DNA of 64,000 bases. Origin: Dolomitihabitans soli. GTDB lineage: Bacteria; Actinomycetota; Actinomycetes; Streptosporangiales; Streptosporangiaceae. Below, piece by piece: positions 12,526 through 16,880 of the stretch. The notes beneath the pieces are model-generated. The model made no database searches and was not told the origin of the DNA. It worked only from the letters and a program-made list of their open reading frames with translations. Each line of letters begins with the position of its first letter. Position 1 is the first letter of the stretch. The stretch is from the NCBI RefSeq assembly GCF_022213955.1, contig NZ_JAKNTW010000013.1, positions 248,001-312,000 of the forward strand, in the 5' to 3' direction. The translations under genes were made by a program, and so were the position numbers.

Positions 12526-13101
12526 TCACCGCCTTCTGGAGGTGCCTGCCCCCTCTACGGGGTTCCTGCCGCGTTCCCGCACAGGTTCTCCACATCCTTC
12601 GCCCAGGCAGCGCTCGACCTCCGTGACGAGTTCGCCGAGAAACTCACCCAGTTGCGCCGAGGTGAGTACGGCACGCAGCCCGAGCCCGCCCGCACCCCAC
12701 GCCTCGACGATCGCCCGCCTGGTGAGCCGCCATTCCCCCGGCGCCGGACGGTCCCGCGCCTGGATCCAGATCGGCCGGGTCCGCAGCAGGCAGCGCAGCT
12801 CGCCGCCACCCGCCACATCGGCCCGCTCACGGCACCTGAACGCGAACAACTCCGTCTCCGGCCCCTCCCCGGGAAAACGGTCGTCCGGATCGACCCAGCA
12901 CCCGCCCTGCTCGGCCCGCGCCGCCGCCACCCCCAGCGCCAGCCGCGCCAGAACCCACCCGCACCGCTCCCCCACCATCCCGTACGGCGTGCCGTCCCGG
13001 CGAAGCTCAAGAACGACCTCGTACGGCACGCCGACGCTGTCCGTACAGGTCAGCGGAGTAACGGTCAGATATGACCCGTCCACGCAGCGAAGTCCCCCCA
13101 T
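12526..13101 (-). CDS. Hypothetical protein downstream of the MNIO locus
   Basis: About 191 residues, no family recognised. Starts at ATG 13101 (MGGLRCVDGSYLTVTP); the open frame continues upstream through a 7-bp tandem repeat, which I do not believe is coding. It contains seven cysteines spread along the chain, no signal peptide and no membrane helix. The first half looks alpha/beta (YEVVLELRRDGTPYGMVGE); the C-terminal part looks helical (QLGEFLGELVTEVERCLGE). Same strand as the MNIO operon but separated from it by a 236-base gap, so co-transcription is uncertain. Codon use fits its neighbours. Confidence 0.6.
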   Translation of the reverse strand: MGGLRCVDGSYLTVTPLTCTDSVGVPYEVVLELRRDGTPYGMVGERCGWVLARLALGVAAARAEQGGCWVDPDDRFPGEGPETELFAFRCRERADVAGGGELRCLLRTRPIWIQARDRPAPGEWRLTRRAIVEAWGAGGLGLRAVLTSAQLGEFLGELVTEVERCLGEGCGEPVRERGRNPVEGAGTSRRR

Positions 13102-13200
13102 GCCTGTGAGGTATCCCCGGCGGACCCACTCAAACTCCGGCCGGCGATGACGCCGCAGACGGAGGGCCGGAGTCGTTCCGTCCAGCCGATTCCGATCCGC

Positions 13201-13268
13201 CCGCCGCCCGCCGCCCGCCGCCCGCCGCCCGCCGCCCGCCGCCCGCCGCCCGCCGCCCGCCGCCCGCG
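13201..13268. repeat. 7-bp tandem repeat (CCGCCGC, nine copies plus partial)
   Basis: Nine exact copies of CCGCCGC followed by a partial copy, all G or C, in the gap between the downstream Gly/Cys-tail protein and the hypothetical gene. Because 7 is not a multiple of 3, copy-number changes shift frame; the open frame running through it repeats R-R-A-A-G-G-G every 21 bases. It may be a slippage hotspot. The rest of this 236-base gap shows no other feature. Confidence 0.9.
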
Positions 13269-13337
13269 ACGAGTTTGCCCGTATGGAGACGCTCGGGGAG
13301 CCGGCCGAAGAACCGGCGCGGTCATCGTCGCGGAAAC

Positions 13338-14333
13338 CTAGCTGCCGCCACACCCTCCGCCGCAACCCCCGCCACAGCCACCACCACCGCCGCCCCCGCC
13401 ACCGGACCCTCCGTCGGAGCCCCCGCCGCCGTAGTCGCCCCCGCCGTAGCCACCCCCGCCGTAGGAGTCGCCTCCCACCGAACCACCGCCGCAGGCACCC
13501 GTCGCGCAGCCCGAACCGCCCGCCACGGCGTTCTTCTTCTCTTCTGCGTCGAGTTGGTCGGCCAATTCGTTGTCACCGGCCTCGCTCAGGCCGTACAGCG
13601 CGACGGGAAAGCCCACGGCGGCCGAGAGACCCGCGCCGGCGGGCACCGGGCCGCCCCTGAGGTGGACGCGCTGGGCCACCGCCAGCTCCTCGCGGCCGGC
13701 GAGGGTGACGACGTTGCGCAGGCCGCGGCGGAGGCGGCGGCCGGCGATCAGGCCGACGACGCCCATGCCGCCCGCGACCGCCACCGCGGCGAAGGAGAGG
13801 ACGTTGACGACCGCGGGCCCCACGGCGACCAGCGCCACCATGCCCGCGGCGAGCACGACGGCCCCGGCCGAGACGATCCTGAGCCTGGCCACCAGGCGGG
13901 ACGTCGGCACGAAGCTGCCGTCGGGAACGAGCAGCCCTCTGCCCGTGAGGTGATAGCGCAGCCCGTGGATCGCGGGGCTGTCGGCCAGCTCGCGGCGGAG
14001 GTCGCCGGCGGAGCAACCGCCCGGACGGGCGGCGACGGCGTCGAGCACCGCCTGCTCCACCGCCTCCGCCGAGGAAGGCGCCCCGTGCACCGGGTTGATC
14101 GCGCCGCCGCGGGAGACCCGGATCGCACCCGATCTGGCGAGCACCGCGAGCGCGGTGTTGATCGCCCGCCGCGGACCGCCCGCGAGGTAGGCGAGCGGGT
14201 AGGGGCCGAGTTGGCCGGCACGTCCGATGGCACTGAGCGAACGCACCCTGCGGTACTCCCGCCGTGCCTCGGCTCTCGTCGATCCGACCAGAGCCGCGGC
14301 CAGCGCACCAAGGATGAGAAAGACGAACTCCAC
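13338..14333 (-). CDS. TIGR04222-type membrane protein with Gly/Cys-rich C-terminal tail (paralog B)
   Basis: A 331-residue protein of the TIGR04222 type. It has an N-terminal membrane helix (~2-17), a cytoplasmic region with [14 protein letters not shown] then RVSRGGAINPVHG, two central helices (~147-195), and a long tail from ~270. The tail holds C-A-T-G-A-C (Cys ~276 and 281), Gly/Ser/Tyr repeats, and a terminus with three evenly spaced Cys (CGGGCGGGCGGS, ~320, 324, 328). It starts at GTG 14333 with GGGAGG four bases upstream and follows the MNIO partner gene by 45 bases. I infer it is a substrate of the MNIO oxidase; its function is unknown. Confidence 0.85.
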   Translation of the reverse strand: MEFVFLILGALAAALVGSTRAEARREYRRVRSLSAIGRAGQLGPYPLAYLAGGPRRAINTALAVLARSGAIRVSRGGAINPVHGAPSSAEAVEQAVLDAVAARPGGCSAGDLRRELADSPAIHGLRYHLTGRGLLVPDGSFVPTSRLVARLRIVSAGAVVLAAGMVALVAVGPAVVNVLSFAAVAVAGGMGVVGLIAGRRLRRGLRNVVTLAGREELAVAQRVHLRGGPVPAGAGLSAAVGFPVALYGLSEAGDNELADQLDAEEKKNAVAGGSGCATGACGGGSVGGDSYGGGGYGGGDYGGGGSDGGSGGGGGGGGGCGGGCGGGCGGS

Positions 14334-14378
14334 TCCGCCTCCCGGGGGGAAGGAGGGGGCCGTGATGGGCCCCGTCTG

Positions 14379-14987
14379 CTATGTAGACGCGCGCCGGGCC
14401 CGCCGAGTTTCCCGCACGCGCGACCAGAATCCGCGACGGCGGGGAGCGGGCGGTTCGGCGGGCCCGGGAGCGAGCCAGTCGGCGAAGGCACGGGCGTCGG
14501 CACGGGAGCCGCCCGGCGGTTTGGGCCGGCCCTCGGCGTACGACGCGAAGAGTGCGGGGAACTCGCCGCCGAGGGAGCCGACCAGGTCCGGCGCGCTCAG
14601 CGCCACCAGCCCGCGCCGCTTCGCGATCAGGGAGGCCGCCTGGATCGCGAGCCGCCGCTCGTCGAAGCCGACCGGCCCGGGACCACCGGCCACCAGCGCC
14701 GCCAGCAACTCCCGCTGCGCCGCGGCCAGCCTCGCCCGCGCGTCCGGCGGGCCGCCCTCACCGACGTCGGGCACGAGACCTCGCGTCTCTGAGGCCGGCG
14801 AACCGCCCCCGCCAGGTCCAGCCACCGGACCTCGCCTCCCTGCCTCGGTCGAACTCGACGAACCGCTCCCCCCAGGCCCAGCCACCGGACCTCGCCCGCC
14901 CGACGCGGTCGAACCCAGCGAGCCGGCCTCAGCCACCGGACCTCGCCCATCTGACGCGGTCGAACTCAGTGAGCCGGCCTCAGTCAT
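14379..14987 (-). CDS. Probable MNIO partner protein (SCO6045-like C-terminal domain) with repetitive N terminus
   Basis: A 202-residue protein. Residues ~1-80 are low-complexity Gly/Ser/Pro repeats built on E-A-G-S-L-x-S-T-A-S-x-G-R-G-P-V-A (17 residues), encoded by the 51/60-bp repeats described separately. Residues ~82-180 form a compact helical domain (ARLAAAQRELLAALVAGG, AIQAASLIAKRRGLVALS, PDLVGSLGGEFPALFASYA), like the small proteins encoded beside DUF692 in Streptomyces (recalled as SCO6045-like). MNIO partners usually bind the precursor and present it to the oxidase. The start could lie further in, for example a GTG in RGLVPDVGEGG; ATG 14987 is the first in frame. Confidence 0.72.
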   Translation of the reverse strand: MTEAGSLSSTASDGRGPVAEAGSLGSTASGGRGPVAGPGGSGSSSSTEAGRRGPVAGPGGGGSPASETRGLVPDVGEGGPPDARARLAAAQRELLAALVAGGPGPVGFDERRLAIQAASLIAKRRGLVALSAPDLVGSLGGEFPALFASYAEGRPKPPGGSRADARAFADWLAPGPAEPPAPRRRGFWSRVRETRRARRAST

Positions 14988-15063
14988 CGGGCATCACCCG
15001 TCTGACGCGGTCGGACTCGGCAAGCCGGCTTCAGCCACCGGACACCACCCGCCTCACGCGGTC
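14780..15063. repeat. Tandem repeat array seeded by the 3' end of the MNIO gene (51- and 60-bp periods)
   Basis: On the minus strand, units begin with GACCGCGTC followed by a version of GGTCCGGTGGCTGA. The element complementary to GACCGCGT lies at 15055-15063 (inside the MNIO gene), 15004-15012, 14953-14961, 14902-14910 and 14842-14850, with one more degraded copy towards 14780. Spacing is therefore 51, 51, 51, 60 and about 60 bases. The first unit encodes the MNIO C terminus [10 protein letters not shown] and stop; the others are read in another frame as the N terminus of the next protein. Periods are multiples of 3, so copy changes keep that frame. Confidence 0.85.
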
Positions 15064-15840
15064 CAGCTCGGCGGCCAGGGCGGCGTCGCTCGGGTAGGCG
15101 TCGTCCCACTCCAGCAGCACGCCCGGCGGGCGGGTGCGGGCGCACAACTCGGCGAGCAGGTCGAGCACGTCCGGCGGCACCGACGCCGTGTGGGTGTCGT
15201 GCCAGACGCCCTCGTGCAGGTGCCCGCCGGCCACGTGCACGTAGGCGAGCGCGTCGAGCGGCAGACCGTCGAGCGCCTCGCGGGCGTCCAGCCCCAGGTT
15301 GACCTGGTTGGTATAGAGGTTGGCCACGTCGATCAGCAGCCCGACCCCGGTTCGTTCGACCAGTTCGCCCAGGAACTGCGCCTCGGTCAGCTCGTCGCCG
15401 GGCCAGCCGAACAGCGCGGCCACGTTCTCCAGCGCCAGGGGCACCGGCAGGGCCGCCTGCGCCTGCCGTACGTTCTGCACGATGACCGACAGCGCGTCGC
15501 GGGTGCGCGGGACGGGCAGCAGGTGCCCGGCCTCCATGCCGCCCGCGCGTACGAACGCGAGGTGCTCGCTGACCAGTGGCGCGTCCAGCGCCCGCGCGCA
15601 CGCCGCCAGGTGCGCGAGGCCCTCGGGCGCGGGCGGTTCGGCGCCGCCGAGGCCGAGCCCCACTCCGTGCGGGATGACGGGGATCCCCTTCGAGCGCAGC
15701 ACACGCAGGGATTCGGGCAGGCGGGCAGGGCGGAGACTCTCGGCGATGACCTCCACGAACTCCACACCCGGCAGCCGCTCCACGGTCAGGTCGATCTCGG
15801 CGCGCCAGCCGATGCCGATCCCGAGCTCCTCGGCCGTCAC
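15031..15840 (-). CDS. DUF692 multinuclear non-heme iron oxidase (MNIO)
   Basis: A 269-residue TIM-barrel enzyme of the DUF692/MbnB/TglH family, which uses an iron cluster and O2 to modify Cys (or other) residues of ribosomal peptides. It opens [12 protein letters not shown]. Expected metal-ligand positions are all present: H58 in IPHGVGLG, E92-H93 in VSEHLAF, E138 in [10 protein letters not shown]171 and N174 in [13 protein letters not shown]202 and H207 in [13 protein letters not shown]215 and H217 in WHDTHTA, E244 in LLEWDD. The GTG start overlaps the stop of the upstream TIGR04222 gene (GTGA); a longer frame upstream only reads its Gly tail out of frame. Confidence 0.93.
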
Positions 15841-16880
15841 CCCCCACCACCGCCTCCGCCGCCGCACCCGCCGCCGCCACCCCCGCCGCATCCCCCTATA
15901 CCGCCGCCCCTGGACCAATTGCCGGAGCCTCCGGAACCTCCCGAGCCGCCGCGAAACCAACCGCGAAACCAACCGCCTGAGCCGGTTCCTGCCGCGTCTC
16001 GGGCCGGGTAGTCCTCGCCCGAGGAGCCCAGCCAGGCGCCGTCCGCGTACGCGCCGTCGTACGAGCCCGTGTAGGAGCCGCAGTGACCGGGAGCGCAGGA
16101 ACTCGCGCGGTCATGGCTGTGCGCGGGAGTACGGGCGTCCGTGCGCAGCGCGTCGGCGAGGTCGCGGTCGGGCAGCCTGGTCAGCCCGCGCAGCGCCACG
16201 GGGACGAGATCGGTCGTGCTCCGCGCCGCGCCGTCGGCCGTCAGGGTGCCCGCGCCCGCCCGCGCGAGCAGCGCGCGGCCCGCCGCCGACACCGGGGTGG
16301 CCAGCCGCCCACGCAGCCAGTACGCGCACGCCAGGGCCGTCGCCAGGGCCGCCACCGCGATGACCAGTGGCACCACGTACACGCCGCCGGTCATGCTGAG
16401 GACGGCGACCATCGCCGCCGGCACGGCGAGGCCCTTGAGCACCCCGATCGTGCGGCGGACGCGGTGCGTCTCCGCGGGCGACAGCAGGAGCCGTTCACCG
16501 GCCAGCCGCTTGGCGATCTGCTGGATCGGGATCTGCGCGCCGGCCCGGCGCCGGATCCGCGCGGCCGGCTGACCGCGCCTCCTCATCCGCACGACTTGGT
16601 ACACCGCGTGCTCCACGGGCAGCCCGCGGTCGGGCGTGAACCCTTGGACCGGCCGTACCGTGCCGTCACGGGCGACCCGGACGGCGTCCTGCCCGATCAG
16701 GGACACCATCGCCGTGTTGACCGTCCGCCGTGGGCCGCCCGCGAGGTAGGCCGCCTCGTAGAGGTCGAGGGACCGGTCCGCCCGGGGTCTGGCCCAGATC
16801 AGCGAGACGCCGAACCACGCTGCGATGAGCGCCACCGGGAGCAGCAGCGTCAGGGAGACCGAGTAGAGCACCACATCCAA
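15837..16880 (-). CDS. TIGR04222-type membrane protein with Gly/Cys-rich C-terminal tail (paralog A)
   Basis: A 347-residue paralog of the protein at 13338-14333. It has an N-terminal membrane helix (~4-30), [14 protein letters not shown] and [13 protein letters not shown], two central helices (~145-190), then a tail with C-A-P-G-H-C (Cys ~262 and 267), aromatic/Gly spacers ([24 protein letters not shown]) and a terminal poly-Gly run with two Cys (~331 and 339). The TTG start is chosen because AGGAGG lies six bases upstream. It is the first gene of the operon and is coupled to the MNIO gene by a GTGA overlap, which makes it a strong candidate substrate. Confidence 0.85.

Follow-up and report, generated by a model that had tools for sequence, protein, structure and literature searches.

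Organization of the operon

The window analysed here is a stretch of 64,000 nucleotides from Dolomitihabitans soli (assembly GCF_022213955.1, contig NZ_JAKNTW010000013.1, positions 248,001 to 312,000), and it includes a four-gene operon coding for two membrane proteins of the TIGR04222 family (A and B), an MNIO (DUF692) oxidase, and a helical partner protein. Enzymes of the MNIO family rebuild cysteines into metal-binding rings, and the glycine- and cysteine-rich C-terminal tails of A and B are candidate substrates of this one. An earlier note on this DNA had described the four genes as a single minus-strand run, and all four are present where it placed them. The GTGA overlap between the MNIO start and the end of A is present in the DNA as the note described, and the motif AYLAGGPRR-x2-NTA is indeed common to both membrane proteins. 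The main features are as follows (positions in the window):

15837-16880, minus strand: protein A, TIGR04222 membrane protein, 347 amino acids; first gene of the operon, with a TTG start behind AGGAGG
15840-16100, minus strand: C-terminal tail of A in translation, CAPGHCG ... CGGGGGGGCGGGGGGGG, with four cysteines; proposed substrate region
15031-15840, minus strand: MNIO (DUF692) oxidase, 269 amino acids; GTG start, with GTGA common to the end of A
14379-14987, minus strand: open reading frame (ORF) of the partner, PME-type 2 or DUF2063-like, with its conserved domain at about 14460-14747; the N-terminal part is repeat-rich and the start uncertain
13338-14333, minus strand: protein B, TIGR04222 membrane protein, 331 amino acids; last gene of the operon, with a GTG start behind GGGAGG
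13341-13535, minus strand: C-terminal tail of B in translation, CATGACGGG ... CGGGCGGGCGGS, with five cysteines; proposed substrate region

Against the NCBIfam model TIGR04222 (cut-off 43), A scores 96.7 bits and B 104.3. In the whole 10.8 Mb genome there is one MNIO gene and two TIGR04222 genes, all of them inside this operon.

The MNIO enzyme

The oxidase matches PF05114 over its whole length (2e-79, 267 bits, cut-off 25), and its solved relatives are 3bww, 8hci, and 7dz9. The nine iron ligands of TglH (His71, His107, Glu151, Asp184, Asn187, His216, Asp229, His231, and Glu258; PMC10880893) correspond here to H58, H93, E138, D171, N174, H202, D215, H217, and E244; none of these positions varies among 32 aligned sequences, which bears out the claim that every expected metal ligand is kept. 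The enzyme scores below the equivalog cut-offs of the two families BufB (189 bits against 310) and HvfB (140 against 360), and by that measure belongs to neither. The fold family, the ligands, and a helical partner are shared with the MbnB-MbnC and TglH-TglI systems, although those act on short peptide precursors and make other products.

Association across genomes

We surveyed 121 genomes of the order, of which 90 contain TIGR04222 matches and 44 contain an MNIO, giving 45 MNIO loci; an association was counted where a TIGR04222 gene lies on the same strand within 3 kb of the MNIO. By this measure 40 of the 45 loci carry a TIGR04222 gene, and in all 40 at least one lies upstream of the MNIO. 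The other five comprise three enzymes with 364-370 bits to PF05114, one of which was compared with BufB and scores 368 bits, above the cut-off, together with a second copy in G084 and the copy in G090. The latter two (L066 and L069), which have neither a TIGR04222 gene nor this partner, score 236-238 bits to BufB, below the cut-off. A profile seeded with the partner in the window detects the partner domain after the MNIO in all 40 TIGR04222-linked loci and in none of the other five.

A further 80 named actinomycete loci from one scan include Streptosporangiaceae, Streptomycetaceae, Pseudonocardiaceae, Mycobacteriaceae, Micromonosporaceae, and others. TIGR04222 genes are present in 75 of these and the partner in 77, the remaining three being cut by contig ends; as every complete locus has a partner, it appears to be universal here. 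Several loci of Streptomyces and Kitasatospora start with the MNIO, followed by the partner and then TIGR04222, and TIGR04222 is first in most of the others. The neighbourhood survey suggested in the earlier note thus finds the three genes together, and chance adjacency is not borne out: the lone MNIO and both TIGR04222 genes of this genome lie in the operon, and the arrangement recurs at 40 of 45 loci.

The partner protein

The partner in the window has no Pfam match and no DUF2063 signature of its own, and among 63 relatives PF09836 (DUF2063) matches 11, with a best E value of 1.2e-4. Its structure was modelled with a predicted local distance difference test (pLDDT) score of 89.5, and the top fold match in the PDB is MbnC (7dz9_C), the partner of MbnB (Foldseek E 6, Z 5.2, root-mean-square deviation 3.5 over 81 residues). 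This predicted resemblance is weak by score and telling by identity. The DUF2063 structure 3dee is absent among the fold matches of the partner, and direct sequence matching of the partner profile to solved structures gave nothing credible.

Antoine et al. (2025; PMC12452194) report, in the main text, loci of TIGR04222, MNIO, and 'PME-type 2' genes. The partner fits this type, as it is encoded just after the MNIO and lacks a Pfam DUF2063 signature; moreover, the PME-type 2 example given in that text is a 115-residue protein of Saccharothrix sp. NRRL B-16314, and that strain is included in our sample too (L222), with a partner of about the same length.

Long ORFs span the MNIO and the partner in the manner of a fusion. 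They are read one position out of frame with the MNIO, however, and therefore reflect overlapping genes in high-GC DNA and not fusions. The region in which the MNIO ends and the partner begins is also repetitive:

14875-15063, minus strand: 51-bp imperfect tandem repeat, 3.7 copies (Tandem Repeats Finder), covering the MNIO stop codon and the region where the partner starts

A second imperfect tandem repeat (60 bp, 1.9 copies, 14799-14914) also lies at this junction, and several copies of the junction repeats contain a possible GTG start.

Cysteine-glycine tails

The tails of A and B both contain a CAxGxCG motif, after which come Cys-Gly repeats. In operon copies generally, the C-terminus is a Gly/Ser run in which cysteines recur regularly. 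Tails were scored as Cys-Gly tails if the last 45 residues include at least two cysteines and at least 18 glycines plus serines. Such tails are present in 51 of 52 operon copies and in 1 of 56 copies from genomes without this MNIO subfamily; counted by genome, they occur in 40/40 with this MNIO and in 1/48 without it. The single case (G005) was rejected as a Cys-tailed gene without an MNIO, as its cysteines sit in a helix motif, CELAGDC, outside the glycine tail, leaving true cases at 0/48. Cysteine accounts for 11.8% of the last 30 residues of operon tails. In a comparison set of 30 tails of similar glycine richness, taken from non-adjacent genes and frequently ending in Asp or Glu, the figure is 1.2%. 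Glycine directly follows 214 of the 248 operon-tail cysteines (86%), and a motif of the type C-x-x-[GS]-x-C-G is found in 36 of the 52 operon copies, the examples in the window being CATGACG and CAPGHCG.

Four Cys-tailed TIGR04222 copies are located away from any MNIO gene, and all are in MNIO genomes (two in G050, one each in G111 and G093). A complete tail-less paralogue is encoded alongside in 19 of the 71 named loci that have a Cys-tailed copy, which suggests a companion subunit. We also note a separate TIGR04222 clade from MNIO-less genomes (e.g. L164 and L158), in which many members have a tail ending GGGGGGGD/E that is preceded by a CxFAxxCQ-like helix.

Predicted membrane topology

The core model of B (pLDDT 93.4) and the hydropathy of the family give three membrane helices, one N-terminal and a central pair, and a winged-helix-like middle domain; the earlier note's picture of a membrane anchor and two central helices is corrected to this extent. 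The helices of B are:

14277-14330, minus strand: membrane helix 1, then an Arg-rich stretch (family hydropathy and charge profile; residues 2-32 are a helix in the model)
13818-13877, minus strand: membrane helix 2 (family hydropathy profile and core model)
13740-13796, minus strand: membrane helix 3, then Arg-rich RRLRRGLR (hydropathy, charge profile, and core model)

Mean counts of lysine plus arginine are 3.6, 3.1, and 3.2 in the predicted cytoplasmic flanks and 0.06 and 0.8 in the predicted outside flanks, and the summed bias places the tail inside in 84 of 84 proteins. With the Arg-rich RRLRRGLR after helix 3, this charge bias points to a tail on the cytoplasmic side; the N-terminus is predicted to be outside, with both the middle domain and the tail in the cytoplasm, the compartment in which an MNIO is expected to act. 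Family members weakly match helix-turn-helix (HTH) families and DUF2207_C. GOLPH3/Vps74 proteins are the top Foldseek hits of the TIGR04222 core, but were not accepted as relatives and are a lead only (E 0.04-0.35, with Z not above unrelated helical chains).

Relationships to known systems

The main text of Antoine et al. (PMC12452194) describes clusters with the same enzyme family, the same membrane protein family with a Gly/Ser/Cys-rich C-terminal tail, and the PME-type 2 partner, and proposes the Cys tails as substrates. According to that text, TIGR04222 proteins form the largest group, 40% of the candidates, among MNIO-linked proteins that lack signal peptides. The earlier note's view that no product or role had been described for the arrangement therefore stands for product and role, the arrangement itself having been published in 2025; likewise, its suggestion that the tails are modified is strengthened by the co-segregation of tail and enzyme and by the constant partner, and had been made by Antoine et al. 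The two analyses differ in partner frequency, given in the main text as at least 10% of TIGR04222 clusters with many lacking one, and found here in every complete locus, and in tail placement, which is periplasmic in that text and cytoplasmic by charge bias here. In the passages of the main text examined, we did not find the constant partner, the co-segregation of tail and enzyme with Cys-tailed copies outside the operon, the tail-less companions, or the inward tail.

The captophorins (bufferins, oxazolin, and fontiphorin; PMC13097082) likewise combine an MNIO and a DUF2063-type partner acting on repeated Cys-Gly sites. They have small Sec-exported precursors and full DUF2063-RRE (PME-type 1) partners, whereas the operon encodes membrane proteins of about 330 residues and a partner too short to include the full RRE part. 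A and B are not captophorin or bufferin precursors, which are small, Sec-exported, and marked by DUF2282, Buf_6/12Cys, or EGKCG; they are TIGR04222 membrane proteins of 331-347 residues.

There is precedent for large modified proteins, as the abstract of PMC12636315 describes C-terminally MNIO-modified proteins of more than 30 kDa. These ChrH-subfamily systems resemble what is proposed for the operon in C-terminal modification of proteins of this size and in membrane-anchored products, but the same abstract gives them a different MNIO subfamily, a conserved C-terminal motif, and a lipoprotein anchor, where A and B have transmembrane helices.

A proposed mechanism and its alternatives

Gene identity, the operon, the association, the partner, the co-segregation of tail and enzyme, and the predicted topology are all supported by computation; from them we infer that a modification takes place, together with its chemistry, the metal involved, and the biological role. 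Because the tail type co-segregates with the enzyme and its constant partner, the Gly/Cys tails of A and B are well supported as putative MNIO substrates, and we consider it likely that this is a TIGR04222-MNIO-PME-type 2 locus whose MNIO oxidises tail cysteines into thiooxazole-type groups on a membrane-held protein. The MNIO, a cytosolic oxidase of the tri-iron type, would be held to its target by the DUF2063-like partner and would oxidise the tail cysteines of A and B while the three helices keep both proteins anchored. FonBC-type enzymes, which have PME-type 1 partners, favour Cys-Gly dyads and form 5-thiooxazoles, accompanied by copper binding and by a mass decrease of 4 Da for each cysteine (PMC13097082); by analogy with PME-type 1 MNIOs, the CGG repeats could be converted into a series of thiooxazole-type groups, carried by a membrane protein that is not cleaved. 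The modified tail, probably on the cytoplasmic face, may act as a ligand for a soft metal (copper, for example) or in the response to oxidative stress.

Several observations weigh against this mechanism. The partner resembles MbnC only weakly (Foldseek E 6; Z 5.2), and since the MNIO falls below the BufB cut-off, 5-thiooxazole is an analogy across subfamilies and the chemistry could differ. In a tree of 127 TIGR04222 core sequences, one supported clade unites the 35 genes whose genomes lack this MNIO, with tail type and operon membership following one deep split; the counts thus represent a tight association rather than many independent gains, and the Fisher value, which overstates independence, was dropped as independent evidence. 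An independent-pairs test had only four usable pairs and was not significant. Copper genes were not recognised among the flanking genes examined, and the main text of Antoine et al. places the tail in the periplasm.

The published placement has its own interpretation, in which the MNIO modifies the tail ahead of its export across the membrane, yielding a chelator anchored at the cell surface. It draws on the AlphaFold and topology reading in the main text of Antoine et al., and bufferins act in the periplasm; however, the charge of the flanks favours an inward tail throughout the 84 proteins, and the weak matches of the middle domain are to cytosolic HTH families and GOLPH3/Vps74, so we regard an extracellular tail as rather unlikely. 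It is decidedly unlikely that the tails are unmodified metal-binding or low-complexity segments, with the MNIO acting on another substrate or on another residue of the membrane proteins. Gly-rich, Cys-less TIGR04222 tails exist in MNIO-less genomes, so a tail may function without involvement of the enzyme, but the Cys-Gly ends are confined to genomes with this MNIO and most of their cysteines precede glycine. Lastly, the genes could be together through inherited synteny, with no joint function, as the fixed position of the locus by PEPCK and uppS/phoH in Streptosporangiaceae, and often by msrB and hemQ- or hemG-like genes elsewhere, might indicate. We consider this highly improbable, as the three parts of the module are kept while neighbours and order vary between families, TIGR04222 being either before or after the MNIO, and no Cys-tailed copy outside the operon is seen in a genome without the enzyme.

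Returning to oxidation of the tails by the MNIO, a more detailed version can be offered tentatively. One MNIO might serve several uncleaved, membrane-tethered proteins, some encoded elsewhere, placing several thiooxazole-type groups on each cytoplasmic tail as an intracellular counterpart, at the face of the membrane, of the exported copper-binding ribosomally synthesized and post-translationally modified peptides, with the winged-helix-like domain of the substrate perhaps replacing the missing RRE in recognition. With its strict tail-enzyme link, constant partner, and predicted inward tail, the TIGR04222 case offers a directly testable example of MNIO modification on the scale of a protein; if the chemistry is that of a 5-thiooxazole, a loss of 4 Da per modified cysteine and absorbance near 305 nm are expected.

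Genomic neighbours

Flanking genes were clustered using filtered ORFs. In Streptosporangiaceae the locus keeps its place between the PEPCK and uppS/phoH genes, and in other families msrB often directly precedes it (23 loci), or hemQ-like (17) or hemG-like (14) genes are close by, the hemG name coming from sequence reading. These neighbours are housekeeping genes, which makes inheritance in place and a maintenance role, in metal or oxidative stress, more likely than an exported natural product; this conserved context suggests a role in cell maintenance. In its 23 loci (L217-L256, e.g. L220, L222, and L249), the msrB (SelR) gene shares the strand of the module and lies upstream of it, and the HemQ-like proteins are of the chlorite dismutase family. 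A candidate Streptomyces homologue, SCO6045, changed about 3-fold in a study of HbpS-SenS-SenR redox signalling (PMC4991794) and is not part of the evidence used here.

In 14 loci (L220, L222, L235, L247, and ten others) the strand of the MNIO also encodes a large subtilisin-like protein, about 1.4-2.6 kb past the MNIO start; this could reflect synteny, or the protein could be a processing protease. Just downstream of the operon in the window are ten perfect copies of the 7-bp unit CCGCCCG (13197-13267), within an ORF (12526-13365) that has no Pfam match and is conserved beside the operon in 24 of the 45 loci of the order and 23 of the 80 named loci.

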